Below, in pieces: positions 5,894-64,000 of a DNA stretch of 64,000 nucleotides. Origin of the DNA: Pseudolysinimonas yzui (GTDB lineage: Bacteria; Actinomycetota; Actinomycetes; Actinomycetales; Microbacteriaceae); contig NZ_BNAI01000002.1 of NCBI RefSeq assembly GCF_014653215.1, positions 62,001-126,000 on the forward strand, read 5' to 3'. Positions within the stretch are counted from its first letter, which is position 1, and every line of letters starts with the position of its first letter. The notes under the pieces were generated by a model. The model saw only the letters and a program-made list of their open reading frames with translations. It had not been told where the DNA came from and made no database searches. Made by a program: the position numbers and the translations under genes.

Positions 5894-7446
5894 CGGCCGT
5901 CGCAGTCCTGACCCGGCGCTTCCTCCTGGAGTATGCCCGGAACCCGGTCAACCTGCTGGTGCTGGTGTTGGTTCCGGTTGTGTTCGTCTGGGTCGCGGCC
6001 GAGCCGATGGCCGACGCCGCCAAACTCCTCGGCGGCACGGGTACCGCCGTGGAAACCGCCACCACCGGCTGGGCGGCGGCGTTCCTCGCCGCCCTCGCGA
6101 TGTACTTCCAGACCCGGCAAGCCCGCTCCGCCGACCGGCGCCTCGCCATCGCCGGTCTGCCGGCCACCGTTCTCGTCGTCGCCCGCATGTCAACCGGGCT
6201 ACTCGTTGCGGTGCTGGTCTCCGGTGCGGCTCTCGTGACCCTGTTCCTGCGAGCCGACGTCGACGACCCGTGGCGGGTCGCCGCGGGCGCCCTGATCTTC
6301 GCCGCGATCTACGTCGGAATCGGTGCCGCCGTCGGTGCGATTGTCCGGGATCCGGTCAATGGAGCCGTCGTCATCCTGCTCATCTGGATCCTGGACGTGT
6401 TCTTCGGACCTGCCCTCAGCTCGCCGGATCAAGAAATCAACAGATGGATGCCCACGCATTTCGTGACGCTCTGGATGGTCGAACTGCCCTCGGGACACGC
6501 AGGGGGCCTCGGCGACCTCGGCATCGGCCTTGCATGGACGGGCGCTGCGCTCCTGGGAAGCAGCCTCCTGCTGGCTCGGGCGACCCGCGCCGGTCGTGGA
6601 TCTCGCCCATCGCGCCGGCCGGGGTGGGGCCGACAACTCGGAACCAGCTTCCGCATGGGCATGCGTGAATATCGCCGCAACCCTGCCCTCTGGACCCTCC
6701 TTGTCACGGTGCCGCTCATCTTCATCTGGCTGTCGAAACTGATCACCAACGAGCAGTACGCAGTGATGCGCGTGATCGAGAACGGCAGGGAGATCGACGA
6801 GCGCTTCTGGCTGCCCGACGCCCACGCTGGCACCATGGCGCCCATCGCAATCGCCGCCCTAGCCACCGTGGCCGGGCTCTTCATCGCCCTGAACAACCGA
6901 AACGGCGATCGGCGGCTCGTTCAGGCCGGCATCCACCGATCCGCTCTTCTCATTGGGCGCTTCGGCCAGGTCGGCGTCGCCGTGCTCGTCACCGTCGCGG
7001 CCTCGCTCGCGATCACGGTCATCATCTTCCCCGCCAGGCAATGGGGAGCGTACATCGGGGCGGCAGTACTCCTCGGGGTCGTCTACGCCCTCCTCGGGAT
7101 GTGCCTCGGCTTCCTTCTCGGACGTGTCAGCGGCGTGCTCGTCGCCTTCGTGGTGCCGTTCCTCGACCTGGGGATCACCCAGAGCCCGATGCTGCGGATA
7201 GAGCCGCCCGAGCTCGCCGTGTTGCTACCGGGGTATGGGCCGTTCCGCATGCTCATCGACGCGGGGCTCACCGACGAGTTCGACGAGGTCAGGGGGCTGC
7301 TCATCGGATCCGGCTGGGTCGTGGTACTGGCGCTCGTCGTCGGCCTCGTATTCGCCACCCGCACCGGCCCTGCGCGCCGTCGGGCGCGGCGGGCCAGGCA
7401 CCTGCGAGCCGCAGAACGGCATGAGCAGCCCGCCCTTGGAACCTGA
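5890..7446 (+). CDS. ABC-2 type exporter, fused two-half permease
   Basis: A 518-residue membrane protein made of two similar halves, each with about six hydrophobic segments. The first begins at FLLEYARNPVNLLVLVLVPV and the second, near residue 255, at MREYRRNPALWTLLVTVPLI. This repeat is typical of ABC-2 exporters in which both half-permeases are in one chain, working with a single ATPase subunit. It overlaps the ATPase gene by four bases and ends 27 bases before the convergent P-loop gene. There is no adjacent regulator or self-resistance gene to suggest the cargo. Confidence 0.85.
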   Translation: MTAVAVLTRRFLLEYARNPVNLLVLVLVPVVFVWVAAEPMADAAKLLGGTGTAVETATTGWAAAFLAALAMYFQTRQARSADRRLAIAGLPATVLVVARMSTGLLVAVLVSGAALVTLFLRADVDDPWRVAAGALIFAAIYVGIGAAVGAIVRDPVNGAVVILLIWILDVFFGPALSSPDQEINRWMPTHFVTLWMVELPSGHAGGLGDLGIGLAWTGAALLGSSLLLARATRAGRGSRPSRRPGWGRQLGTSFRMGMREYRRNPALWTLLVTVPLIFIWLSKLITNEQYAVMRVIENGREIDERFWLPDAHAGTMAPIAIAALATVAGLFIALNNRNGDRRLVQAGIHRSALLIGRFGQVGVAVLVTVAASLAITVIIFPARQWGAYIGAAVLLGVVYALLGMCLGFLLGRVSGVLVAFVVPFLDLGITQSPMLRIEPPELAVLLPGYGPFRMLIDAGLTDEFDEVRGLLIGSGWVVVLALVVGLVFATRTGPARRRARRARHLRAAERHEQPALGT

Positions 7447-7473
7447 CCTGCCGCCTGGGCTCGACCGGGTCAG

Positions 7474-7995
7474 CTAGAGCCGATCCAGAATGTACGCGAC
7501 CCGGTCAGCCGGGCTGAGAACCGGCACTTTCACGACCGGGGTCGAGAGGTTCCGGTAGACCTCGATGAGAAGGGCATGGATGCGCATTTGTGCGGAGACG
7601 TCCTCGGTACGGGCGTAGTCCGCGGCGAGGGGGAGTAAATCGAGGATGAAAGCCTTCCGATACGAGACTCGCTGGAGGGCGTCGAGGAGCTCTGCGTCGG
7701 GCTCGAGGTCGAGGAATCTGTAGTAGGCCAGCGAGTCGGGGATGGCGCGATCGAGGAAGATAGTCTCGTCGGGGTCCAGACTCGCCTCCTGGTCCAGCTG
7801 CATCGCAAGAACTCCGTGTTGGAACTCGCGTCGGCGCGCGCGCACTTCCTCGACGGTCTTGCCCTCGACCCGCTTGAGATCCAAGTAGTGCCGGGCGTGT
7901 TCGATCGTGGTCCTGTGACCAAGGTCGCGCAGCATGTCGACGGTCGTCGTCTTGCCCGAACTGGGGCCCCCGGTGATTACGTACCAATTTGTCAT
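7474..7995 (-). CDS. AAA/P-loop NTPase (NadR-like, AAA_28 type)
   Basis: A 173-residue single-domain P-loop protein. Walker A is GGPSSGKTT at residues 8-16, followed by a region beginning TTIEHARHYLD and a probable Walker B/acidic strand TIFLDRAIPDSLAYY near residue 90. The family includes small kinase-like ATPases and NadR-type kinases with uncharacterised substrates. The ATG at 7995 is preferred over one seven codons upstream because GGAGAGG sits just before it. The gene is transcribed alone and converges with the exporter operon. The function is not predictable beyond nucleotide binding, probably phosphotransfer. Confidence 0.7.
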   Translation of the reverse strand: MTNWYVITGGPSSGKTTTVDMLRDLGHRTTIEHARHYLDLKRVEGKTVEEVRARRREFQHGVLAMQLDQEASLDPDETIFLDRAIPDSLAYYRFLDLEPDAELLDALQRVSYRKAFILDLLPLAADYARTEDVSAQMRIHALLIEVYRNLSTPVVKVPVLSPADRVAYILDRL

Positions 7996-8229
7996 GATCG
8001 GTCCTCTCCAGGTCAAGGTGCCAGTCAGGTGGGAATTGTTGGGATCTGTTCGCTAGCCCGGGTGCTGCTCAGCGCTGGAGCAAGTAGACACCGTGTGTCA
8101 GCCGTGAACGCGACCACCGAAGCACGCGCCTATCCAGGTCGCTGGGTTGCTCGACCGTAGCCATGACGAGAGGCTGTCGGCACCGACGTGACCAGCTCGT
8201 GCGGAGCTGATCCAAGTCAGACCAATCGT

Positions 8230-8460
8230 CTACGGCTTGCCGCCCAAGATTTCCAGACGCTCGCGGTACTCCTGCGTGGTCAGCTCACCACGTGCATACC
8301 GATCAGCGAGGATCTGTTGCGGCGTCGATGCCGTGGTCTTTGCGGTGGAGGCCGCAGAATTGCGAACCAAGACCACGACGAGAACCACAATTCCGATGAG
8401 GACGAGTCCACCGATCAGCCACATCCAGCCCCAGCCCTCGTATCCATATCCCCACATCAT
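8230..8460 (-). CDS. Small SHOCT-domain membrane protein
   Basis: A 76-residue protein. The N-terminus MMWGYGYEGWGWMWLIGG runs into one hydrophobic helix (LVLIGIVVLVVVLV). After a Ser/Thr/Ala linker, the C-terminal 30 residues (ILADRYARGELTTQEYRERL) are a SHOCT domain, a short helical motif often found at the ends of membrane proteins. The two adjacent ATGs at 8458-8460 and 8455-8457 follow GAGAGGGG. In many actinobacteria such proteins lie near copper or stress genes, but no such neighbour is present here. The role is unknown. Confidence 0.75.
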   Translation of the reverse strand: MMWGYGYEGWGWMWLIGGLVLIGIVVLVVVLVRNSAASTAKTTASTPQQILADRYARGELTTQEYRERLEILGGKP

Positions 8461-8782
8461 GATGGTGCCCCTCTCTGCATTGGTAGGCGTTCGGGCGGAC
8501 AGGTACTCCGGCCCTCGCTGAGCTAACGATTCCCCAAGCCGGAGCAGCGTACTAAGGCCTTTGGTCCCCCCGCACGGGCTCATCCGAATACCACTCGAGG
8601 GTCTTGGCGGGGTCTAGGGGCCCAAGAGCCCCTCACTGGGGGCAACGTTCCATCGTCCCGAGATCGTCCCGAGCATGTCGTGGATGGGTGTGGGAGCCGC
8701 CGGATCGAGTGCAGCTCGGTCCCCGAATTCACTGCAATCTCTGGCCTGCACACGCACTCAACCCCAAGTCCGGTCGAGTGCA
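8461..8782. other. Non-coding stretch bordering the tRNA fragment
   Basis: No gene is supported here. It contains a perfect hairpin (AGGGGC, six-base loop, GCCCCT) at 8616-8633 without a T-run, and a tandem 11-base repeat ATCGTCCCGAG at 8652-8673. Either could belong to the end of the integrated element, but neither has a demonstrable function. Confidence 0.4.
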
Positions 8783-8842
8783 CCACCCTGCTAAGGTGGA
8801 GAACCCGCAAGGGTTCCGAGGGTTCAAATCCCTCCGTCTCCG
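8783..8842 (+). other. 3' fragment of tRNA-Ser(GCU): putative attachment-site duplicate
   Basis: The sequence folds as the 3' two-thirds of a class II tRNA. The anticodon stem CCACC/GGTGG surrounds the loop CTGCTAA (anticodon GCT at 8790-8792). A long variable-arm hairpin AACCC-GCAA-GGGTT, a T-arm GAGGG-TTCAAAT-CCCTC and the acceptor strand CGTCTCC plus discriminator G follow. The matching 5' acceptor strand GGAGACG and a D-arm are absent upstream, so this is not a complete tRNA. Tyrosine integrases commonly target tRNA 3' ends and leave such a copy at one side of the element, with the intact gene at the other. It coincides with the change from patchy accessory genes to ordered catabolic operons. 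Confidence 0.75.
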
Positions 8843-54208: not shown

Positions 54209-55207
54209 GTGGAGCGGATCACGATCGAGGACGTCGCGGCTCGCGCCGGGGTGAGCCCGACGACCGTGTCGCACGTCTTCAGCGGTCACCGACCGGTTCG
54301 CAGCGAGACCAAGGCGCTCGTCGAACGTGTCGCGATCGAGTTGGGATACCGGCCCAACGCCGTCGCGCGTTCGCTGCGCGTGCAGCGCACCAACACCGCG
54401 ATGATCATCCTCCCTGACATCACGAACCCGTTCTACCCGGTGTTCGCGCGCGGGGTGCAGGACGTTCTGCGCGCCGGCGAGTATCACACGCTGCTGTGCA
54501 ATACCGACTCGCGAGAAGAGGAGGAACGTGCGTTCCTCGACGAGGCGATCTCGCGTCGCCTCGACGGCGTCGTGTTCATGGGCTATTGGGTGTCGCCCGA
54601 AGAGTTGCTCGACGTCGCCACCGCAGGCGTCGCCGTCGTCAACCTCGGGGAGGGGGTCCCGGGCGCCCCGATCGACTCCGTGCGGTCGACCGACGAGGAG
54701 GGCGCGCGCGACGCGACGGCCTTCCTGCTCGGGCGCTACGGCAGCGCGGTGGCGCTGATCGACGGCACCATGTTCGCGCCGGTCGCCCGCGCGCGCACGA
54801 GCGGCTACCAACGGGCTCTTCGGTCGGCGGGCCTCGTGCCCGTTCCGGAGTACGAGGTCAGCGAAGAGTTCACCCGGGAGGGCGGGAGTCGGGGCATGGC
54901 CGCCTTGCTCGACTTGGCCGACCCCCCGCGCGCGGTGTTCTGCGCCAACGATCAGATCGCGATCGGCGCGCTTCAGGAGGCCGCTCGGCGGGGGCTGTCG
55001 GTCCCCGCCGACATCGCGATCGTCGGCTTCGACGACATCGACGCGGCGACCATGGTGCGTCCGAACCTCACGACGGTGCGCAACTCGCCGGACGCGCTGG
55101 GCGCGCACTGTGGTGAGTTGCTGCTCTCGCGCATGACGGGTGAGTTCACGGGGCCGGGGCGCGACGTGGTGATCCCCGCCGAGCTCGTCATCCGGGAAAG
55201 CGCGTGA
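54209..55207 (+). CDS. LacI-family regulator of the sugar/glycoside locus
   Basis: A 332-residue LacI-type repressor. The helix-turn-helix is TIEDVAARAGVSPTTVSHVF, with the hinge in NAVARSLRVQRTNTAMIILP. The sensor domain is complete, ending VVIPAELVIRESA. The start is GTG at 54209, four bases after the last oxidoreductase, so it belongs to the operon. Four copies of a GCAAAT/ATTTGC palindrome stand before the three transcription units of the locus, and this is the only unassigned LacI gene nearby, so autoregulated control of all three is likely. Confidence 0.88.
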   Translation: MERITIEDVAARAGVSPTTVSHVFSGHRPVRSETKALVERVAIELGYRPNAVARSLRVQRTNTAMIILPDITNPFYPVFARGVQDVLRAGEYHTLLCNTDSREEEERAFLDEAISRRLDGVVFMGYWVSPEELLDVATAGVAVVNLGEGVPGAPIDSVRSTDEEGARDATAFLLGRYGSAVALIDGTMFAPVARARTSGYQRALRSAGLVPVPEYEVSEEFTREGGSRGMAALLDLADPPRAVFCANDQIAIGALQEAARRGLSVPADIAIVGFDDIDAATMVRPNLTTVRNSPDALGAHCGELLLSRMTGEFTGPGRDVVIPAELVIRESA

Positions 55208-55246
55208 TGCCGCGCGTCTCTGTCATAACCTGACGATCTTCTCGCC

Positions 55247-55266
55247 CGGAGCGGGGCCTCGTTCCG
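55247..55266. terminator. Weak hairpin between convergent operons
   Basis: CGGAGCG and CGTTCCG can pair (one G-U) around a six-base loop in the 119-base gap between the LacI gene and the convergent ferritin-like gene. There is no T-run, so terminator function is only suggested by position. Confidence 0.3.
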
Positions 55267-55326
55267 CGGCTAAGGCACGCGCGCGGGCTCCGTATCGCCG
55301 ACCCGTTGGGCGCCGAGCGCTGACCG

Positions 55327-56187
55327 TCAGGCCGTCTGGGTCTCGACCGCGACCGTCTCCTCGAGCGGAAGCGCGTCGGGCGTGCCTTCGCCCTCACCCG
55401 AGATGCCGCGCTTGTCGAGCGCACTTTCGACGATGGTGAGGCCCTGCATGCCGGGGAGCTTCGCGATGTGCGAGTCGATGCTGCGGATCAGCTTGCGCCC
55501 CTCGGCGCCCGCGAACAGGTGCCCCATGACGTGGGTGACCTCGCTATCGGGCGAGATCGTCGAGCCGACGGGCGCCCAGAACTTGCTGAGCGCGAAGCGG
55601 GCGATCACCTGCGCCTTCTTGCTCTTCTCGAGCCGGTCGCGGGCCTGTGAGGCGTAGAAGGCGACGTGCTTGGTCTCTTGCGCCGCGATCCGCTTGAGCA
55701 GTTCGGCGAGCACGGGGTGGTTCTCCTGGCGGGCCATGCGCAGGTAGGCGGCGTTGGCCGACCACTCGTTGGCGGCACCCCAGGCCATGTGCACGGCGAC
55801 GAAGTCGTGGCCGACGAGCCCGCCGAGCAGCGACTGCTTGATCGGGTCGAGCCGGTCTTTCCAGCCCAGCTTGAGCCGCGAGGCCTTGAGCTGGTCGAAG
55901 TCGACGGTGATGCCGTGCTTGCCGAGCACCGCGGCGAGGGCTTCGCCGTGCCAGAACTCCTCACGGTTCCACATCGTCATGAACGAACCCACTTCGGGTT
56001 CCTTGTGCGACGGGGTGGTGAGCAGATCGCGCAGGTAGCAGACCGTGTGGTACTCGACGTCGCACATGTAGCGCAGCACGCGCAGGCTCGACTCGGGCAG
56101 CGGGTTGGTCTCGAAGGACTCGAGGTCGAGGTCGGTCCAGGTCACCGGCTCGGAGTTCGCGGTGTACTTGTCGATGTCGAACGCCAC
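55327..56187 (-). CDS. Ferritin-like diiron protein, complete ligand set
   Basis: A 286-residue four-helix protein of the ferritin-like/acyl-ACP-desaturase superfamily. All expected diiron ligands are present: Glu45 (MCDVEYHTVCYL), Glu77-x-x-His80 (REEFWHGEAL), Glu141 (AANEWSANAAY) and Glu171-x-x-His174 (AAQETKHVAFYA). Such a site can activate oxygen for desaturation or hydroxylation. It is the last gene of a three-gene operon with a fatty acyl reductase and an altered paralogue, so the substrate is probably an acyl or alkyl chain. Helices align with the paralogue residue for residue over the first 150 positions. The exact reaction is unknown. Confidence 0.75.
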   Translation of the reverse strand: MAFDIDKYTANSEPVTWTDLDLESFETNPLPESSLRVLRYMCDVEYHTVCYLRDLLTTPSHKEPEVGSFMTMWNREEFWHGEALAAVLGKHGITVDFDQLKASRLKLGWKDRLDPIKQSLLGGLVGHDFVAVHMAWGAANEWSANAAYLRMARQENHPVLAELLKRIAAQETKHVAFYASQARDRLEKSKKAQVIARFALSKFWAPVGSTISPDSEVTHVMGHLFAGAEGRKLIRSIDSHIAKLPGMQGLTIVESALDKRGISGEGEGTPDALPLEETVAVETQTA

Positions 56188-56211
56188 GGGGTGCCTCCCT
56201 TCGAGGTGCGT

Positions 56212-58536
56212 CTACGAGTTCTCGGGTTGTGAAGTCTTCGAAACGGCCGTCGTGGCCGGATTGCCGTCCATCAAAGCACGCTTCGGTGACCGAATGCCCC
56301 GCTTCCAGTGGTGAATCGGCCAGTGGCGCTTCTGCGCTTCCTTGGTCAGCTGGGGGTCGGGGTTGATCGCGGTGGGGTGACCGAGCATCTCGAGCCAGCC
56401 GAGGTCGGCGTGGCTGTCGCCGTAGCCGTACGACGCGGCGAGGTCGGCGCCGTGCTCCTTCGCATACCGGGTGAGCCAGGCCGCCCGGGATTCGTCGACG
56501 ATCGGCGGCTTCGTGAGGTAACCGGTGAGCACCCCGTCGCGCTCGTGCATCGTGGTGGCGACGACATCGTCGAACAGGTTCTCGAACGGCTTCGCGAGCA
56601 GGCCGATCGAGCCGGAGACGAGCACCGTACGGTGGCCGGCCTCCTTGTGCAGACGGATCTGCTCGAGTGCCTCGTGGCTGGTGTGACGGCGCATGGTGTC
56701 GCCATAGCCGCCGGCGACGATCTTCTCCAGCCGGCTGACCGGCATCCCCTCGTAACGCCGCAGGAAGGTGCGGATGAACTCGCCGCGGTTGCGACGCTCC
56801 GCCCGCAGGTAGCCGGGCACCGAGGCCAGCATGCCGAGCACCTCGCCGGGCCAGGCCGCCTTGCGCAGGCCGGCGGAGCGCACCCAGAGGTACTGCTGCA
56901 CGATGTTCGAGTCGACGACCGTGCCCTCCATGTCGAACACGGCGAGCACGTCGCCGCGCGGGGGCAGCTCGGCCTTACGGGTCGGCTGGGCGGCGGCGCG
57001 TTCGGCCTGGCGGGCGCGCGAGAACGCCTTCGTCAGCTTGGTGATCGCCGGGAAGTGCACGTTCTGCAGGTAGTCGTCCCAGTCGATCGCCGAGATGTCG
57101 AAGCCCTTGTCGGCCTTCTCTTTCGCCGGCAGGGCGTCGTGGAGGGCGCGCAGGTTGGAGTCGTCGAAGATCAGCTCGGTCTCGACGTACACCCGGTAGA
57201 GCGAGACGAAGTTGCGCAGCGTCGCGAGGTCGGCGACGCCCTTTTGCAGCTTCTCGAGGGTCGCCTGAGATCCCTTGGTCTTCGGCAGGATGCGCAGCGC
57301 GCGCTCCCCGGCACGCACCCGGCGTTCCAGCCGGTTGATGCCGCGTTCCACCTTGTCGGGCCCGGGGAACTTCCACACCGGAACCACGATGGGCTTGCCG
57401 CGGCGATCGGTGAGCGGGTTCTTCGTGAAGAACTCGTGCACGTTCTCGTACATCTGGTGGAACGGCACCGGGTTCGAGGCGCCCGAGGCCACGTGGTAGT
57501 ACTCGGGCTCGCCCTTCTTCGCGGGGTTGGCGGCGGCGGCGAGGATCGTGTTGACGACGTAGTCGACCGGGATGAGGTCGAGGATGCTGTCGGGCAGCCC
57601 GGGGAACTCGGGCAGCTGCCCCTTGCCGTACGCCATGATGAGCGGGTCGGCGACCTTGAAGCCGTCGATCCAGCCGGGGTAGGGGTGCTTGAGGGCGCTC
57701 TCGATGATCGCCGGCCGCACGACCGACAGGCGGTGGTCGGCGCCCCACAGCTCTTCGGCGGCGCGCTCCGAGAACGCCTTCGACAGCGTGTAGACGTCGG
57801 TCCAGCCGAGGCTCTGTGCGCGCGTGCGGCCGGCATCCACCAGTTCGCTCCGCACCCAGGCGAGCCGGGCCAGCTCGCTCCACTTCGCGACCGCCTGCGG
57901 GCCCTCCTTGCCGTGCTCGGCCTGCGCGGTCTCCATGAAGGTGCGCAGCCGGTGCGGCTCGCGCGACTCGGTTTCGATGCGCCGGTGCGCGTCGAACGCC
58001 GAAGCGTACTCGGCGCGCCAGTCGATGTCGTGCTTGAGGCTCGTCTCGGGCGCGACGCCCTTGCGCAGCCCCTGCACGTAGCAGGTGGAGACGTGCACGA
58101 CCCGGGGGTCGCCGCCGGCCGCGCGCAGGCTCTCGTAGAGGTTGACGACGCCGCCGATGTTGGCCTCGAACGACTCGTTGATGGGGTCGTCGAACGACAC
58201 GCTCGCGGCGCTGTGGATGACGAGGTCGAGGTCCTTCGGCAGCGTCAGCGGCGAGGTCAGCCCGCCCTCGACGACCTTGATGCGGTTCTTGACGGCATCC
58301 TCGATGCCGGCGGCGCCGACCTTGTCGCGCCAGGCGGCGAAGACGGGCTTCTTGAGCAGGCTGCGCACGCGGTCTTCGGCGCTTGCGCTGCCCTTGACCC
58401 GCACGAGGATCGTGACCGTGGTGCCGGGGTGGTCGTTGAGCAGCCGCTCGAGCACGGCCTGGCCGACGAAGCCGGTGGCGCCGGTGAGGAATACGCGAGC
58501 GCTGCCGAGGTCGGTGGTCGCCTTCTTGGGGGTCAC
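56212..58536 (-). CDS. Fatty acyl reductase fused to a HAD-IB phosphatase
   Basis: A 774-residue fusion. Residues 1 to about 400 form an NAD-binding reductase of the male-sterility/FAR type: TGATGFVGQAV (Gly19 to Gly25) for cofactor, and Tyr249-x-x-x-Lys253 (YTLSK) as catalytic pair. A Sterile-type linker spans about 400-520. The rest is a HAD hydrolase with the nucleophile loop DMEGT (Asp535), VSGS and GYGDSHAD near residue 708. The reductase would make fatty aldehyde or alcohol from acyl-CoA; the HAD domain would dephosphorylate a lipid precursor. The second acid of the HAD motif is Glu rather than Asp. The GTG at 58536 overlaps the upstream stop. Confidence 0.82.
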   Translation of the reverse strand: MTPKKATTDLGSARVFLTGATGFVGQAVLERLLNDHPGTTVTILVRVKGSASAEDRVRSLLKKPVFAAWRDKVGAAGIEDAVKNRIKVVEGGLTSPLTLPKDLDLVIHSAASVSFDDPINESFEANIGGVVNLYESLRAAGGDPRVVHVSTCYVQGLRKGVAPETSLKHDIDWRAEYASAFDAHRRIETESREPHRLRTFMETAQAEHGKEGPQAVAKWSELARLAWVRSELVDAGRTRAQSLGWTDVYTLSKAFSERAAEELWGADHRLSVVRPAIIESALKHPYPGWIDGFKVADPLIMAYGKGQLPEFPGLPDSILDLIPVDYVVNTILAAAANPAKKGEPEYYHVASGASNPVPFHQMYENVHEFFTKNPLTDRRGKPIVVPVWKFPGPDKVERGINRLERRVRAGERALRILPKTKGSQATLEKLQKGVADLATLRNFVSLYRVYVETELIFDDSNLRALHDALPAKEKADKGFDISAIDWDDYLQNVHFPAITKLTKAFSRARQAERAAAQPTRKAELPPRGDVLAVFDMEGTVVDSNIVQQYLWVRSAGLRKAAWPGEVLGMLASVPGYLRAERRNRGEFIRTFLRRYEGMPVSRLEKIVAGGYGDTMRRHTSHEALEQIRLHKEAGHRTVLVSGSIGLLAKPFENLFDDVVATTMHERDGVLTGYLTKPPIVDESRAAWLTRYAKEHGADLAASYGYGDSHADLGWLEMLGHPTAINPDPQLTKEAQKRHWPIHHWKRGIRSPKRALMDGNPATTAVSKTSQPENS

Positions 58537-59309
58537 GGAACCAGTCTCGCAGCCACGATGGGCGCGGCGGCACCGAGTCCGGGGAGCGCGGCGATACGGT
58601 CCGCGATCTCGGCGGCGCGCGCGGCACCGTCCTTGCCGCCGAACACGACCGCCTCGAAGGAGGAGCGGTCTTCGGCCGACCGGTCGATCGCGCCGAGCGG
58701 CCAGGCCGACCGCTTGACCTCCTTGAGGGAGAGTTTGCGGGCGCGGGCTGAGTCGGCGAGGCGTCGCTGCGCGTCTTCGGCGAGGAAGAGGATGTGGCGC
58801 TCCTTGAGTTCGATGATGAGGTCGGCGACCGCGCGCACGGCGGGGGCGATCTCGCCGAGGCGACGGTAGGCCGCGGTCGTCACCCACTCGTCGATGAGTC
58901 CGGTGGTGACGTGGGCGGCGACGAGTTCGGGGCCGGCGATGTTGCCGGCGATGGCGCGGGCGATCGGGCCGCGTCGTTCGACGCGTTCGACGCGTGACCG
59001 GCGCCGCGCCCCCGCGGGTGAGGTGAGGTCGTGCCCGGTCGCCTCGAGCACGGCGTCGAGGGCGTCGGCGATCCAGAACTTCTCGAACGCCCAGGTGGTG
59101 AGGAACGCGGTGACGCGGGCATCCTTGTGCGTCGCCGTCACCAGCACGTTGCGCATCCGCTCCATCGTGTGACGCTCGAGGTCGCGCATCGTGCGGATGA
59201 GCCGGGCGGCGTCGGCATCGACGTCGGCGGCGGTCAGGGACTCGAGGTCGAGTTCACCGCGGTGGCTTCCCCGGGCGGTGCGGGCGAACTCACGGACATC
59301 GAAAGTCAT
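58533..59309 (-). CDS. Ferritin-like paralogue with disrupted diiron site
   Basis: A 258-residue protein colinear with the diiron protein at 55327-56187. Glu45 (RDLERHTMERM), Glu141 (IDEWVTTAAY) and the last His (ELKERHILF) are kept, but both ExxH motifs are broken: Glu77 becomes Lys and His80 becomes Ile (FEKFWIADAL), and the Glu corresponding to 171 becomes Lys. Glu-to-Lys changes at iron positions are what inactive partners of diiron oxygenases show. It is the first gene of the operon and its stop overlaps the reductase start. I infer a structural subunit for the active paralogue. AAGGA precedes the ATG at 59309. Confidence 0.72.
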   Translation of the reverse strand: MTFDVREFARTARGSHRGELDLESLTAADVDADAARLIRTMRDLERHTMERMRNVLVTATHKDARVTAFLTTWAFEKFWIADALDAVLEATGHDLTSPAGARRRSRVERVERRGPIARAIAGNIAGPELVAAHVTTGLIDEWVTTAAYRRLGEIAPAVRAVADLIIELKERHILFLAEDAQRRLADSARARKLSLKEVKRSAWPLGAIDRSAEDRSSFEAVVFGGKDGAARAAEIADRIAALPGLGAAAPIVAARLVP

Positions 59310-59384
59310 GGCGGGGTCCTTCGGTACGGGGGTGGGAGGTCCCGTGCGCGGAGCGTTAGTGCCCCGCACCGTATCGTAAGGCAC

Positions 59385-60182
59385 ATGGCTATCGCTCTCA
59401 TCACGGGAGGAACGTCGGGCATCGGGGCCACGTTCGCCCGGCAGCTCGCGGCCGCGGGCTCCGACATCGTGCTCGTCGCGCGTGACCGCGAGCGTCTCGA
59501 GCAGATGGCGCATGAACTTCGCGGCATGGGTCGTGAGGTCGAGATCATGCCCGCCGACCTGGCGAAGCGCGCCGACGTCGCGAAGGTCGTGAAGCGGCTC
59601 GAAGACCCGAAGAAGCCGGTCGACGTCCTGGTGAACAATGCCGGTTTCGGCATGCATTCTCGGCTCTCGGATGCCGACTCGACCGGCCACGACCGCGCGT
59701 TCGAGGTGATGGTGCGTTCCGTGCGCGAGCTGGGGGCGGCATCCGCTCGGGCCATGCGCGCCCGCGGCCGGGGCCGCATCATCAACGTCTCGAGCACCGC
59801 CGGCTTCGTCGCGATGTCGAGCGGCTACTCCTCGATCAAGGCCTGGGTGACGAGTTTCAGCGAGAGCCTCTCGAATGAGTTGCACGGCACCGGGGTGACC
59901 GTCACGGCGCTCTGCCCGGGCTGGGTGCACACCGAATTCCACGATCGGGCCGGGATCTCGAAGGGCGGCATCCCGAGCTGGTTGTGGCTCGACGCCGACA
60001 AGCTGGTGCGCGCCGCGCTGCGGGATGCCGAGCGCGGCAAGGTGATCTCGATCCCCACGGTGCGCTACAAGGTGCTCATGGGGATCGTGCGTCACCTGCC
60101 CCGGTCGACCGTGCGGGCGATCTCTCGTGCCATCAGTTCCAGTCGCACAGTCTCCAGTGGCAGTAGTACCGTGACCAAGTGA
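59385..60182 (+). CDS. Short-chain dehydrogenase/reductase of the lipid cluster
   Basis: A 265-residue classical SDR. Cofactor motif ITGGTSGIGATFARQL, NNAG in VDVLVNNAGFG, and a catalytic Ser and YxxxK in INVSSTAGFVAMSSGYSSIK are all present. In context it could reduce 1-alkyl (or acyl) dihydroxyacetone phosphate to the glycerol form, the step after ether-bond formation. It is divergent from the ferritin-like operon with a 75-base gap and coupled to the acyltransferase gene. TATCGT lies seven bases before the ATG, so a leaderless transcript is possible. Confidence 0.85.
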   Translation: MAIALITGGTSGIGATFARQLAAAGSDIVLVARDRERLEQMAHELRGMGREVEIMPADLAKRADVAKVVKRLEDPKKPVDVLVNNAGFGMHSRLSDADSTGHDRAFEVMVRSVRELGAASARAMRARGRGRIINVSSTAGFVAMSSGYSSIKAWVTSFSESLSNELHGTGVTVTALCPGWVHTEFHDRAGISKGGIPSWLWLDADKLVRAALRDAERGKVISIPTVRYKVLMGIVRHLPRSTVRAISRAISSSRTVSSGSSTVTK

Positions 60183-60214
60183 CCGAAGACGAGCGCGCGG
60201 AAAAGGAGCGATCC

Positions 60215-60934
60215 ATGTCCGCGAAGGCGAAACGGTTCACGTCGAGAGGGCGTGCGGCCGCTCGGTTCGTCGCCCAGCGCGGATTGCTCGTGCCGGTGGC
60301 CTGGTCGACCGTCAAGGTCGAGGTGCACGGCGTCAAGAAACTGAAGAAGGTCGGCAAGGCGTTCATCGTCATCGCCAACCACTCCAGCCACCTCGATGCC
60401 CCGCTCATCCTCGGGTCGCTGCCGATGCGCATGTCGCGCTACCTCGCCGCCGGGGCCGCGGCCGACTACTTCTTCGACGTCTGGTGGCGGCGCGGGCTGA
60501 CCGGCCTGTTCTTCAACGCCTTCCCCGTCGACCGCAGCGGCGTCAACCCGCGCAGCGTGAGCGCCAAGGTGCTGCTGCAGAAGGGCGTGCCGCTGCTGGT
60601 CTTCCCCGAAGGCACCCGGGCGAAGGACTACCGCAAGCGCGGGCACTTCAAGCCCGGCGCCGCCGCTCTCGCCATCTCCACGGGTGTGCCCATCATTCCC
60701 GTCGCCCTGGTCGGAGCCGGTCGCGCCCACCCGCGCGGCAGCAAATGGCCCAAGCCGGGTCGGCTCCCGGTCGGCGTCGTCTACGGTGACCCGATGTTCG
60801 CGCGTCCCGGCGAAGTGCCCAACGACTTCATGGCGCGCATCAAAGCCGAGATCGAAAGCCTGCTCGCCGAGCACAGTCCCCGTATCCTGGGCTCCGACGC
60901 CCCGCCCGCCCCCGAAGAAGGACCGAAGTCATGA
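60215..60934 (+). CDS. PlsC-type lysophospholipid/glycerolipid acyltransferase
   Basis: A 239-residue acyltransferase with the four-block PlsC signature: NHSSHLDAP (HX4D), then FNAFPVDRSG, LVFPEGTRAKDYR and VPIIPVALVG. It acylates a glycerol- or dihydroxyacetone-phosphate backbone at the membrane surface. The ATG at 60215 is chosen because AAAAGGAG lies six bases upstream; a GTG at 60179 overlapping the SDR stop is the alternative and would add 12 residues. Its end overlaps the AGPS-like gene by four bases. In this cluster it could make acyl-DHAP for exchange or acylate the ether lipid at sn-2. Confidence 0.88.
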   Translation: MSAKAKRFTSRGRAAARFVAQRGLLVPVAWSTVKVEVHGVKKLKKVGKAFIVIANHSSHLDAPLILGSLPMRMSRYLAAGAAADYFFDVWWRRGLTGLFFNAFPVDRSGVNPRSVSAKVLLQKGVPLLVFPEGTRAKDYRKRGHFKPGAAALAISTGVPIIPVALVGAGRAHPRGSKWPKPGRLPVGVVYGDPMFARPGEVPNDFMARIKAEIESLLAEHSPRILGSDAPPAPEEGPKS

Positions 60935-62652
60935 CCGACGCCAGGAACAACCAGGTGAGCCATATGAAGTGGTGGGGCTGGGGCCTGGACGGGGTGGGGT
61001 TCCACTGGGAAGACAAACCCGGCTTCGCGCCGTTCGTGCTGAAGGCCGTCGGCCTCGACCTGCACACCGCGCAGCCGGTGCCCGAGCCGTCGTTCGCCGA
61101 CCTCAAGGTGCCGAAGTCGAAAGCCACCGCGACCTTCACCGGAGCGCTCGCCGGCATCGTCGGCGAAGACGACGTCACGACCGACGACCTGGAGCGGGTC
61201 GTGCACACCTACGGCAAGAGCCTGCGCGACCTGGTGCGCATCCGCACCCACAAGATCGAACGGCTCCCCGACGTCGTGGTCTACCCCGACGACGAGGCCG
61301 AGATCCAGAAGGTCGTGGATGCCGTGGTCGCCGCCGACGCGGTGCTTATCCCGTTCGGTGGGGGCAGCAACATCGCCGGATCGCTCGAGCCGCGCGCCGA
61401 CGAGAAGCGCATCGTCGTCTCGCTCGATCTCGGTCGCCTCAACAAGGTGCTCGACATCGACGAGGAGTCGGGCATCGCCCGCATCCAGGCGGGGGCGCTC
61501 GGGCCGCACCTCGAGAAGCAGCTGAACGACAAGGGCTGGACGATCGGGCACTTCCCCGACTCGTTCACGCACTCCTCGATCGGCGGCTGGGTCGCCACCC
61601 GGTCCTCGGGCATGCAGAGCGACAAGTACGGCGACATCGCCGAGATCGCCCGCGGCATGCGCGTCGTGCGCCCCGGCGGCACCCTCGTCATCCGCGCCCT
61701 GCCGTCGACCTCGTCGGGGCCGAGCGTGCGCGAGATGATCCTCGGCAGCGAGGGCCGTCTCGGCGTCATCACCGAGGTGACCGCCCAGGTGCACCGCATC
61801 CCGGCGAAACGCGACGTGTACGCGTACTTCTTCCCGAACATCGAGGCGGGCTTCGCGGCGATGCAGGAGATTTCCGAATCGGACGCCACCCCGTCGATCA
61901 CGCGCGTCTCCGACGCCCGCGAGACGGGCTTCTCGCTCGCGACGAGCAAGAGCCGCAAGGGCCTCGACAAGTTCCTGGCCGGCACCGTTCTCCCGGGCCT
62001 GATGAAGCGCAAGGGCTGGGCGAAACAGCCCGGCGGTCTCGAGAACATCTGCCTGTCGTTCATCGGCTTCGAGGGTTCGGTCGAGCACGCGAAGCGGCAG
62101 AAGAAGCTCGTGGATGCCATCGTGAAGAAGCACAACGGCATGGGCGTCGGCACCGGCCCCGGCGTGCTCTACGACCAGAAGAAGTTCGACACCCCGTACC
62201 TGCGCGACTTCCTGCTCGACCGGGGCGCCGCGGGCGACGTCTCCGAGACGGCGGGGCCGTGGTCGAAGCTCGCCGACCTGCACGCCGGGGCGTATGCCGC
62301 CGCGAACGCGGCCTACGAGAAGATCGGCCGCAAGGGCTGGATCATGTCGCACCTCTCGCACTCGTACCACTCGGGGGCGTGCCTGTACTTCACCTTCGCG
62401 TTCGTCGGCGGCGACGACATGCTCGGCGAGTACGACGTCGTGAAGTCGGCGATCCAGCAGTCGTTCATCGACAACGGCGGAACGCTCTCGCATCACCACG
62501 GCGTCGGCCTGGAGCACTCGCCGTGGCTGGAGCAGGACATCTCTCCGGAGGGCGTCAAGGTGATGCGCGGGCTGTTCGCGGTGACCGACCCGGGTGAGAA
62601 CCTCAACCCGCGCAAGATCGTCGCCGACGTGCGGGAGTCCATCTCTCGGTGA
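60931..62652 (+). CDS. agpS: Alkylglycerone-phosphate synthase-like FAD enzyme
   Basis: A 573-residue flavoprotein of the VAO family that closely follows eukaryotic alkyl-DHAP synthase. It shares the opening KWWGWG, the FAD-binding PFGGGSNIAGS (Pro141 onward), IGHFPDSFTHSSIGGWVATR, GSEGRLGVITEVT, HSYHSGACLYFTFAF (Tyr479, His480) and the His-rich loop SHHHGVG (His521-523). That enzyme exchanges the acyl chain of acyl-DHAP for a fatty alcohol, creating the ether bond. A generic glycolate-oxidase-like FAD protein is the alternative, but the His-rich loop and the fatty acyl reductase nearby support AGPS. It is coupled to the acyltransferase gene by ATGA. Confidence 0.88.
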   Translation: MTDARNNQVSHMKWWGWGLDGVGFHWEDKPGFAPFVLKAVGLDLHTAQPVPEPSFADLKVPKSKATATFTGALAGIVGEDDVTTDDLERVVHTYGKSLRDLVRIRTHKIERLPDVVVYPDDEAEIQKVVDAVVAADAVLIPFGGGSNIAGSLEPRADEKRIVVSLDLGRLNKVLDIDEESGIARIQAGALGPHLEKQLNDKGWTIGHFPDSFTHSSIGGWVATRSSGMQSDKYGDIAEIARGMRVVRPGGTLVIRALPSTSSGPSVREMILGSEGRLGVITEVTAQVHRIPAKRDVYAYFFPNIEAGFAAMQEISESDATPSITRVSDARETGFSLATSKSRKGLDKFLAGTVLPGLMKRKGWAKQPGGLENICLSFIGFEGSVEHAKRQKKLVDAIVKKHNGMGVGTGPGVLYDQKKFDTPYLRDFLLDRGAAGDVSETAGPWSKLADLHAGAYAAANAAYEKIGRKGWIMSHLSHSYHSGACLYFTFAFVGGDDMLGEYDVVKSAIQQSFIDNGGTLSHHHGVGLEHSPWLEQDISPEGVKVMRGLFAVTDPGENLNPRKIVADVRESISR

Positions 62653-62665
62653 CGGTCGTCACCCG

Positions 62666-64000
62666 GTGAACGACCTGGGCGAGCGCAACCAGACCCGCGC
62701 GGCAGCGATGGCAGCCGACCTGGCCGACGTCCGTCGCGCCCTCGACCGCTTCGCGATCGGCTACCTGCTCGTGCGGGGTGACGACGATCGACCGGTCATC
62801 GCGGTGGATCGCGCGGGGCGGCCTCAGCTGGAAGCCGCATTCGCCGCCGATTTCGCCGGGCTGCCGTTCTACGCGCGGGTCGACGAGAGCGGGAAGCGCT
62901 CGGAACGTCGGCTCGCATCCGGTCTGCCGCTCGGCGCCGAGGCCGAGCTGTTCCTGCTCTACCGGCGGCGTCCCCGCGAGTCGCGGGCGGGGTGGAAGGT
63001 CGCCGAGGCCGCGGTGCGGCTCGAGCTGTGGACGTTCGACGCCGACGAGATCGTGGCGCCCCGTGCGAACGCGCTGACCCGTCGCCGCATCCCCCGGGCG
63101 GATGCCGTCGAGACCTCGGTCTCGCGCGGCGGTCAGGACTGGCCGACCCTCGCCGGCATGTTCGACGATCACGCCGACGACGTGGACTTCGACATCGACA
63201 TGGTGTTCTCCTGGGTCGACGGCAGCGAGCCGGGATACCTCGAGGAACGCCGCCGCTGGAGCACCCTCAGCGGCCTCGACGCCGACACCGGCCCGGCCCG
63301 GTACCGCCAGATCGACGAACTGCGCTACGCCCTGCGCAGCGTGCACGCCTTCGCGCCCTGGGTGCGGCGCATCTTCGTCGCCAGCGACTCCCCGGCGCCG
63401 GCCTGGCTCGACCCGGCGCATCCGCGGGTGACCTTCGTGCGCAGCGAGGAGTTCTTCGCCGACACCGGGATGCTGCCGACCTTCAACTCGCACGCGATCG
63501 AGAGCCAGGTGCACCGCATCCCCGGCCTCGCCGAGCACTTCCTCTACTCCAACGACGACATGTTCTTCGGCCGTCCGATGACGCCCGCGATGTTCTTCTC
63601 GCCGGGCGGGATCTCCCGATTCGTCGAAGCCACCGTGCGCATCGGCCTCGGCGAGTCCGACCCGGTGCGCACTGGCCACGACAACGCGATGCGGGTCAAC
63701 CGGGCGCTGCTGCGGGAACGATTCGGCCGTACCATCACCCGGCACCTGGAGCACACCGCCGCCCCGATGCGCCGCAGCGTGCTGGCGGAACTCGAGCAGG
63801 AGTTCCCCGCCGACTTCGCCCGAACGGCCGCGTCGCGGTTCCGGTCGGGCGACGACATCTCGGTCACCAACTCGCTGTATCACTACTACGCGCTGCTCAC
63901 CGGGCGAGCGGTGACCCAGACGGCTCTGCGCGTGCTCTACGTCGAGACGACCCTCGCCCGCAGCGCGGCGCTGCTGCGCCGCCTGGAGCGCCGGCGCCAG
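62666..64000 (+). CDS. Stealth-family sugar-phosphate transferase (3' end outside the window)
   Basis: The first 445 residues of a Stealth protein. Conserved regions are visible in order: CR1 (IDMVFSWVDGSEPGY), CR2 (ELRYALRSVHAFAPWVRRIF, then MLPTFNSHAIESQVHRI and HFLYSNDDMFFG) and CR3 (HDNAMRVNRALLRERFG). CR4 may begin near the edge. Stealth enzymes transfer sugar-1-phosphate units to make phosphodiester-linked capsules or cell-wall glycans. The N-terminal 160 residues are variable. The start is GTG at 62666, 13 bases after the AGPS-like gene, so both are probably cotranscribed. No ribosome site is obvious. Confidence 0.85.
   Translation, partial: MNDLGERNQTRAAAMAADLADVRRALDRFAIGYLLVRGDDDRPVIAVDRAGRPQLEAAFAADFAGLPFYARVDESGKRSERRLASGLPLGAEAELFLLYRRRPRESRAGWKVAEAAVRLELWTFDADEIVAPRANALTRRRIPRADAVETSVSRGGQDWPTLAGMFDDHADDVDFDIDMVFSWVDGSEPGYLEERRRWSTLSGLDADTGPARYRQIDELRYALRSVHAFAPWVRRIFVASDSPAPAWLDPAHPRVTFVRSEEFFADTGMLPTFNSHAIESQVHRIPGLAEHFLYSNDDMFFGRPMTPAMFFSPGGISRFVEATVRIGLGESDPVRTGHDNAMRVNRALLRERFGRTITRHLEHTAAPMRRSVLAELEQEFPADFARTAASRFRSGDDISVTNSLYHYYALLTGRAVTQTALRVLYVETTLARSAALLRRLERRRQ

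Follow-up and report, generated by a model that had tools for sequence, protein, structure and literature searches.

A Conserved Six-Gene Cluster of Microbacteriaceae as a Candidate Pathway for Ether Lipids and Plasmalogens

Gene organization of the locus

A stretch of 64,000 nucleotides from the actinobacterium Pseudolysinimonas yzui (Microbacteriaceae; contig NZ_BNAI01000002.1, positions 62,001 to 126,000), referred to below as the window, carries in its final 9 kb (55327-62652) a cluster of six genes that very probably encodes an ether-lipid pathway by way of alkyl-dihydroxyacetone phosphate (alkyl-DHAP) synthase, AGPS. According to the coordinates of the open reading frames, the genes form two divergent operons (Table 1). 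On the minus strand, transcription runs through ferB, then the gene for a fatty acyl reductase (FAR) fused to a HAD domain, and then ferA; on the plus strand it runs through SDR, PlsC and AGPS. With the start codons chosen here, the ferB/FAR, SDR/PlsC and PlsC/AGPS joints are 4-base overlaps, and no sigma-70 consensus was found in 55100-62900. A first-pass annotation of this DNA had listed a reductase, an AGPS-like protein, a PlsC acyltransferase, an SDR, a HAD phosphatase domain and two ferritin-like proteins, and open reading frames and Pfam recover all of them. The HAD domain is present, although it belongs to one 774-residue protein with the reductase and is not separate. The two ferritin-like proteins are likewise present but not equivalent, the E/ExxH/E/ExxH set of ligands being complete in ferA and incomplete in ferB.

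Table 1. Features of the six-gene cluster, with positions in the window
Feature	Position	Strand	Length	Description
ferA	55327-56187	-	286 aa	Soluble diiron protein; proposed catalytic subunit of a delta-1' (vinyl-ether-forming) desaturase
FAR-HAD	56212-58536	-	774 aa	Fatty acyl reductase (male sterility type) fused to HAD-IB phosphatase
ferB	58533-59309	-	258 aa	ferA paralogue without complete metal site; proposed structural partner
Intergenic region ferB-SDR	59310-59384	none	75 bases	Between the divergent starts; presumed promoter region
SDR	59385-60182	+	265 aa	Proposed 1-alkyl-DHAP reductase; adh_short
PlsC-family acyltransferase	60179-60934	+	251 aa	Proposed DHAP acyltransferase and/or sn-2 acyltransferase; PF01553
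AGPS	60931-62652	+	573 aa	FAD enzyme with HHH loop; alkyl-DHAP synthase by sequence

AGPS and the accompanying enzymes

In a search of PDB sequences, residues 57-564 of AGPS match 2uuu with an E-value of 3.1e-115 and residues 87-556 match 4bby, the solved peroxisomal AGPS, with 1.3e-78, whereas the best match outside the alkyl-DHAP synthases, a D-lactate dehydrogenase, has an E-value of 4.2e-21. The sources of 2uuu and 4bby are taken here to be Dictyostelium and guinea pig, respectively. The His-rich loop pointed out in the first-pass annotation reads LSHHHGVG, and its H521-H523, together with R325, R425 and Y486, align with H615-H617, R419, R515 and Y578 of 4bby, which presumably matter for catalysis. 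These residues are conserved in 65-66 of 66 relatives, one row being gapped. The rows retained for such counts, after those of unusual length had been dropped, were 66 of 70 for AGPS, 69 of 72 for FAR-HAD, 68 of 71 for PlsC and 71 of 71 for SDR. The Pfam domains of AGPS are FAD_binding_4 and FAD-oxidase_C, and its best NCBIfam match is GlcD, at 125.2 bits against a cut-off of 567.9. By sequence and active-site residues, the protein is assigned to the alkyl-DHAP synthase family. An identity as lactate or glycolate oxidase, the finding that in the first-pass annotation was to speak against an ether-lipid pathway, is rejected on the distance between 3.1e-115 (2uuu) and 4.2e-21. Because AGPS is far closer to the solved alkyl-DHAP synthases and shares the aligned residues, it groups with them, and the ether-lipid reading survives on this point. 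In two distant actinobacteria (L128 and L129), a 57%-identical AGPS adjoins a PlsC-type gene (32-34%), and ferA, ferB, FAR and SDR have no match in the stretch examined around AGPS.

FAR-HAD contains NAD_binding_4 (E-value, 6.5e-45) and HAD (2e-29) in Pfam, and its GxxGxxG motif, S150, YxxxK and HAD aspartates are invariant in 69 of 69 relatives. Motif I of the HAD domain is DxE instead of DxD in the same 69 of 69, so that phosphatase activity of this domain is likely rather than certain. SDR belongs to adh_short (8.6e-46), with the glycine motif, S137, Y148 and K152 invariant in 71 of 71 relatives, and PlsC to Acyltransferase PF01553 (2.1e-20), with HX4D (H68 and D73) invariant in 68 of 68. 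Among the matches listed for the six proteins, no NCBIfam family is above its cut-off; the HAD-IB family TIGR01490 reaches 93.6 bits against 98.3, and the best SDR match, among the best 25 of 249, is mycolate reductase, with 160.8 against 380 bits. In Subtercola vilae (L102), a gene for a Lar_N lactate-racemase-like protein (6564-8099) and a second PlsC gene (8090-8830) separate FAR-HAD from ferA, which is closely followed by a diacylglycerol kinase gene. These three additions fit two acylations and a phosphorylation-dephosphorylation of a glycerolipid.

Metal site and predicted fold of ferA and ferB

E45, E77, H80, E141, E171 and H174 of ferA, as well as E76, are invariant in 80 of 80 relatives. 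When ferB is aligned to these positions, E77 is replaced by K/R, H80 by I/L/V/M/T and E171 by K/R in 77 of 77 relatives, which indicates that ferB cannot hold a diiron site of the ferA type. Identity between ferB and ferA is 28% in the window and 24-38% in the relatives, and ferB is, judged from these alignments, a ferA paralogue that lost its metal site. This loss had been missed in the first-pass annotation, as had the existence of ferA and ferB without ether genes, which is described below. The duplication, the conserved loss of the site and the joint inheritance of the two genes point to a ferA-ferB heteromer, for which yeast Rnr4, a metal-less partner serving the diiron protein Rnr2, provides an analogy.

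Sequence comparison places ferA near the edge of known families. It scores 21.8 bits against a cut-off of 22.8 for Rubrerythrin and 19.4 against 22.7 for FA_desaturase_2 (PF03405) in Pfam, and Lipid_desat (PF10520), the family of PEDS1/CarF, is absent among its Pfam matches up to an E-value of 1. The ferB protein of the window has no Pfam match, nor was any found at an E-value of 0.01 in 10 members scanned. A single-sequence PDB search with ferA gave weak rubrerythrin-type matches (best E-value, 0.0055), and a ferA profile found nothing among PDB sequences at 0.01.

AlphaFold2 models of ferA and ferB have pLDDT values of 85.5 and 93.2, respectively. The ten best VIA-align rows for the ferA model are all acyl-acyl carrier protein (acyl-ACP) desaturases, with Z scores of 17.4-18.7 for the plant enzymes and 16.5 for mycobacterial DesA2, although helical bundles generally score high in such comparisons. 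The best match, 4v0j (Z score, 18.7), superposes with a root-mean-square deviation of 3.0 over 236 residues, and sequence identity to the acyl-ACP desaturase structures is 13-18%. Below them come R2lox (15.7, tied with DesA2), RNR R2 (15.3) and 6d9f, a Kitasatospora protein with aldehyde-deformylating activity (15.1). Foldseek gave one match below an E-value of 0.001, again a plant acyl-ACP desaturase. The ferB model belongs to the fold class of ferA, and its matches to desaturases and to R2lox score equally. The predicted fold of ferA suggests the kind of reaction, in which an unactivated chain would be oxidized with O2, and not the position of the bond.

Conservation and probable transfer of the cluster

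Genome contigs were scanned with the ferA alignment, and the best 80 of 288 ferA relatives were taken as a sample of named loci. The full set of six is found together at 70 of these 80 loci, and the cluster is thus a real unit, more than a product of chance. Gene order is identical at 67 loci (68 if L066, where ferB was scored as ferA, is counted), and at two the genes are rearranged yet together. Six of the other ten, four from Agromyces and two from Leifsonia (L051, L071, L072, L086, L087 and L103), hold only ferB and ferA. AGPS is missing from L024, whose contig begins inside PlsC, and several genes are missing from L047, L093 and L095, each genome of which has a close AGPS elsewhere. The six-gene block is present in Microbacteriaceae, Ruaniaceae, Jiangellaceae (Phytoactinopolyspora) and Streptomyces, and a genome from another family of the order (G048/L139) has all six arranged on one strand as one operon.

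In the ferA tree, the window protein falls in an 18-row clade (support, 100/97) of Microbacteriaceae and four Streptomyces. Its nearest neighbors by tree path are metagenome-assembled genomes (MAGs) of Microbacteriaceae, a MAG labelled Acidobacteria and an uncultured Schumannella. AGPS, FAR, ferB and SDR of Streptomyces are nearest to those of Schumannella (L040 and L043), with an AGPS clade support of 0.999, and Streptomyces ferA is nearest to L025, within the 18-row clade shared with the window. Since the Streptomyces genes are nested among or nearest to those of Microbacteriaceae, the block was probably passed to Streptomyces as a unit. In L026, named Acidobacteria bacterium, and L069, a Corynebacterium-like bacterium (B27), ferA groups with Microbacteriaceae and with Herbiconiux; these records are probably mislabelled or misbinned. 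In L041 (the same as G290, genus code g106) and L042, both named Microbacterium, ferA groups with Salinibacterium, and at least three other g106 genomes (G138, G196 and G247) are without ferA; its presence in L041 and L042 looks like transfer.

According to crude gene calls, the commonest extra neighbors over the 80 loci are a TetR-type family (29) and a diacylglycerol-kinase family (11), both named from Pfam on one example each. The median position of the TetR-type gene at its 29 loci is just beyond AGPS. Neither gene adjoins the cluster of the window, where a gene for a Stealth protein with CR1-CR3 domains (62663-64000, plus strand) lies directly downstream of AGPS.

Co-occurrence of ferA and AGPS

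In a survey of 349 genomes of the family (cut-offs, E <= 1e-20 for ferA and E < 1e-150 for a close AGPS), ferA is present in 112 and a close AGPS in 103. Both are found in 102 genomes, ferA only in 10, AGPS only in one and neither in 236, giving a Fisher p value of 3e-75 that ignores shared ancestry. ferA occurs in 31 of 85 sampled genus codes. Weaker AGPS homologues in G017, G096 and G360 were set aside; none of these genomes has ferA. In the sole genome with AGPS only, G133 (85% complete), FAR, SDR, PlsC and AGPS are adjacent; neither of the two ferritin-like genes is found in 14 kb at the locus, nor ferA elsewhere in the genome. The tenth ferA-only genome, G139, corresponds to the fragment L024 and has FAR. 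At several Agromyces loci with ferB and ferA, msrA/msrB-like genes and a gene for a small membrane protein are seen nearby by sequence inspection only.

A second survey covered 396 genomes of the phylum, with a cut-off of E <= 1e-60 for AGPS-like proteins. ferA was found in 22 of them and an AGPS-like protein, mostly 31-39% identical, in 67. No shared neighbor was seen in crude gene calls around ferA in 10 of the 19 ferA genomes outside the family. In two genomes from other families of the order (L138 and L140), ferA is either single or accompanied by a divergent ferB, with no AGPS in its vicinity. At eight other actinobacterial loci with weak AGPS homologues (31-36%), no cluster gene adjoins AGPS except one 30% SDR.

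Possible link to dimethylacetals

Reports of dimethylacetals (DMAs), the markers of plasmalogens, in aerobic actinobacteria go back to 2000 (cited in PMC5945732, PMC7472656). The first-pass annotation had mentioned them for Subtercola, which agrees with the values tabulated for Subtercola vilae DB165: i-16:0 (17.0%), a-15:0 (3.2%) and a-17:0 (1.9%), about 22% in total (PMC5945732). The same fatty acid table contains no unsaturated acid, and glycolipids are described beside phosphatidylglycerol and diphosphatidylglycerol. S. vilae DB165, the one strain matched strictly, carries all six cluster genes, in line with the co-occurrence in DMA-positive Microbacteriaceae that the first-pass annotation had proposed to survey, and in its genus code (g8) eight genomes are positive for ferA and AGPS among the matches listed. 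As to relatives, DMAs are given as comparable in other Subtercola, low in Agreia and none in Frondihabitans (PMC5945732). Agreia bicolorata, Plantibacter flavus, Glaciihabitans tibetensis and two Frigoribacterium MAGs also carry the cluster. An a-15:0 aldehyde or DMA is recorded for Frigoribacterium adelgis D8 and F. faeni, and not for two other Frigoribacterium species, in the data given by PMC12823222.

A further source of evidence is a peak that software may name C14:0 2-OH. In Kineococcus rubinsiae, this peak was identified as anteiso-C15:0 dimethylacetal by gas chromatography-mass spectrometry; it was misnamed because only the anaerobe library names DMAs (PMC7472656). C14:0 2-OH is listed at 4.2% with the TSBA6 library for the cluster-bearing species G. 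tibetensis and at 17.0% for F. faeni. In a term search of its main text, the genome paper of S. vilae contains none of plasmalogen, dimethyl, DMA or ether (PMC6518244). No gene for actinobacterial DMAs is named in those portions of the open-licence literature that were searched; an earlier account may exist among preprints or subscription journals.

PlsA is taken here to carry a DUF2229 domain. A reductase with DUF2229 (PF09989) is found in none of 10 genomes with ferA and AGPS, S. vilae included, and in 4 of 14 controls. Taken as a whole, the link between the cluster and plasmalogens is suggestive and correlational.

Proposed pathway and alternatives

In the proposed pathway, FAR would make a fatty alcohol from acyl-CoA or acyl-ACP, and PlsC would acylate DHAP to acyl-DHAP. 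AGPS would then swap the acyl chain for the fatty alcohol to give 1-O-alkyl-DHAP, which SDR would reduce to 1-O-alkyl-glycerol-3-phosphate. Acylation at sn-2 would be performed by PlsC again or by a housekeeping enzyme, and the HAD domain may dephosphorylate the resulting alkyl-acyl-glycerol phosphate, feeding polar lipids or glycolipids. Finally, ferA, as a soluble O2-dependent diiron enzyme acting with ferB, would remove two hydrogens at C1'-C2' to form the vinyl ether. The computed basis of this scheme comprises protein families, conserved active sites, the predicted fold, co-occurrence and presence in a dimethylacetal-positive strain; from these we infer each reaction in the host organism, the ferA-ferB complex, the O2 dependence and, most of all, where in the chain ferA places the double bond. 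An end product with a vinyl ether, i.e., plasmalogen-type 1'-alkenyl glycerolipids, is probable. The evidence leans, with less assurance, to ferA as the maker of this vinyl ether, and the complete sequence of events, an AGPS route ending in plasmalogen-type lipids through ferA with ferB, is favored to a similarly modest degree. The suggestion of the first-pass annotation that a diiron protein introduces the double bond has gained from the fold, the ligands, the co-occurrence with AGPS and the lack of DUF2229 in 10 of 10 genomes, although it is still reached by inference.

Several observations weigh against a plasmalogen pathway completed by ferA. The cluster encodes no ferredoxin or reductase, and a housekeeping ferredoxin would need to serve as the electron donor of ferA. 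FAR is present in none of 12 distinct genomes that have ferA without AGPS, from Agromyces, Leifsonia and one further genus (15 entries, of which three are counted twice: G061=G244, G063=G134 and G064=G377). Since ferA persists there without a close AGPS and FAR, it has or keeps a use outside the ether pathway in those genomes. Considered with G133, which lacks ferA and ferB, they lead to the conclusion that FAR, SDR, PlsC and AGPS behave as one module and ferA and ferB as another. The six named genomes of this kind group in a single clade (100/99), itself nested in a clade of 21 rows (100/100) whose other members bear the cluster; as judged from this nesting, they seem to have lost the ether genes secondarily. 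Outside the family, only 3 of 19 ferA genomes (G518, G649 and G738) have an AGPS-like match, other cluster genes are found beside ferA at none of 10 loci examined, and the older ferA relatives stand alone, so the ferA family is older than its tie to ether lipids. The strict match of cluster and DMAs, suggestive as it is, comes from one strain, S. vilae DB165. C14:0 2-OH is given only as traces for Lacisediminihabitans profunda and Lysinibacter cavernae in the data of PMC7033078, and congeners of L. profunda carry the cluster (L050 and L063). For Salinibacterium metalliresistens, three saturated branched acids make up about 94% and no DMA appears in the main text (PMC10713820); the cluster is carried by other Salinibacterium (L039 and L052), S. 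metalliresistens itself not having been checked. A CarF homologue was found in none of 10 cluster genomes, but control genomes were also silent, which leaves its absence unproven.

These points give some room, in an unlikely but appreciable alternative, to a cluster that makes only plasmanyl lipids, with ferA and ferB oxidizing acyl or alkyl chains in some other way, for example by hydroxylation or by desaturation at mid-chain, and with the DMAs of Subtercola coming from another pathway. The closest fold of ferA is that of mid-chain acyl-ACP desaturases, ferA persists in the 12 genomes without AGPS and FAR, and its single-copy relatives sit in unrelated contexts. On the other hand, 102 of 103 genomes of the family with a close AGPS keep ferA, which would be odd for an unrelated fatty acid desaturase; S. 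vilae has no DUF2229 match to account for its DMAs; and its fatty acid table lists no unsaturated acid (PMC5945732). It is much less probable that ferA is an aldehyde-deformylating oxygenase or a similar enzyme, turning the FAR aldehyde into hydrocarbons while AGPS and PlsC form a parallel branch. The ferritin-like diiron fold and the appearance of 6d9f among the fold matches would be expected of such an enzyme, but 6d9f lies 3.6 Z units under the best acyl-ACP desaturase, ferA is present where FAR is absent, and what the cluster retains with ferA is AGPS and not FAR alone. A divergent 2-hydroxyacid dehydrogenase or oxidase in the place of AGPS, within an operon for fatty alcohol or wax metabolism, is the least credible alternative and highly improbable. 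The FAD_binding_4 and FAD-oxidase_C domains are shared with such enzymes and GlcD is the best NCBIfam match, albeit far under the cut-off; against this stand the E-values for 2uuu and 4bby in comparison with that of the best D-lactate dehydrogenase, and the retention of the AGPS-type Arg, Tyr and HHH residues.

Comparison with known systems

CarF/PEDS1 and PlsA/PlsR are named as vinyl-ether makers in the consulted sections of reviews, one of which singles out the myxobacteria as a striking exception among aerobes (PMC9131029, PMC9702350). There is about an even chance that ferA/ferB is a third, independently evolved maker, a heteromer of a soluble diiron enzyme and its duplicated metal-less partner, which would equip a large part of Microbacteriaceae and would have moved with the cluster to Streptomyces. 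If so, it would represent a third, unrelated route to plasmalogens, and the cluster would explain the plasmalogen traces reported in related oxygen-using bacteria. One reason why plasmalogens of aerobic actinobacteria have been overlooked would then be that their marker can be labelled C14:0 2-OH by routine fatty acid software, and some chemotaxonomic reports of this acid may need revision. Being soluble, such a plasmanyl desaturase would also lend itself to study more readily than PEDS1, which is membrane-bound. The vinyl-ether question is directly testable, as the genes, an identified strain, an easy acid-lability assay and a natural variant that lacks ferA and ferB are at hand.

Soluble acyl-ACP desaturases, such as plant stearoyl-ACP desaturase and mycobacterial DesA, resemble ferA in predicted fold and diiron ligands; ferA differs from them in falling below the Pfam cut-off, in its 13-18% identity and in the metal-less paralogue encoded beside it. 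The PlsA/PlsR system of anaerobes gives a like class of product, but works on diacyl lipids and involves neither DHAP nor fatty alcohol (PMC9702350). Closer in its enzymes is Myxococcus xanthus, which has AGPS (MXAN_1676), FAR with a GNPAT-like acyltransferase (MXAN_1675), an SDR-like protein (MXAN_1674) and, in the elb operon, the HAD-like protein ElbB (PMC9131029). FAR is fused to the acyltransferase in M. xanthus and to HAD in the window; the desaturase CarF is of another family than ferA, and no ferA/ferB-like protein is named in the sections of that review drawn on here (PMC9131029).

The animal plasmalogen pathway (FAR1, GNPAT, AGPS, acyl/alkyl-DHAP reductase and PEDS1) has a like order of steps with homologous or analogous enzymes, and its O2-dependent desaturation occurs late, as proposed here (PMC9131029). 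By comparison, the reductase of the cluster carries a HAD phosphatase and the cluster genes are grouped together. Animal PEDS1 belongs to Lipid_desat (PF10520), whereas ferA is unmatched to this family and its model has the acyl-ACP desaturase fold. If the proposed reading is right, the AGPS-route plasmalogen pathway would exist in a further form, with a desaturase unrelated to CarF/PEDS1.

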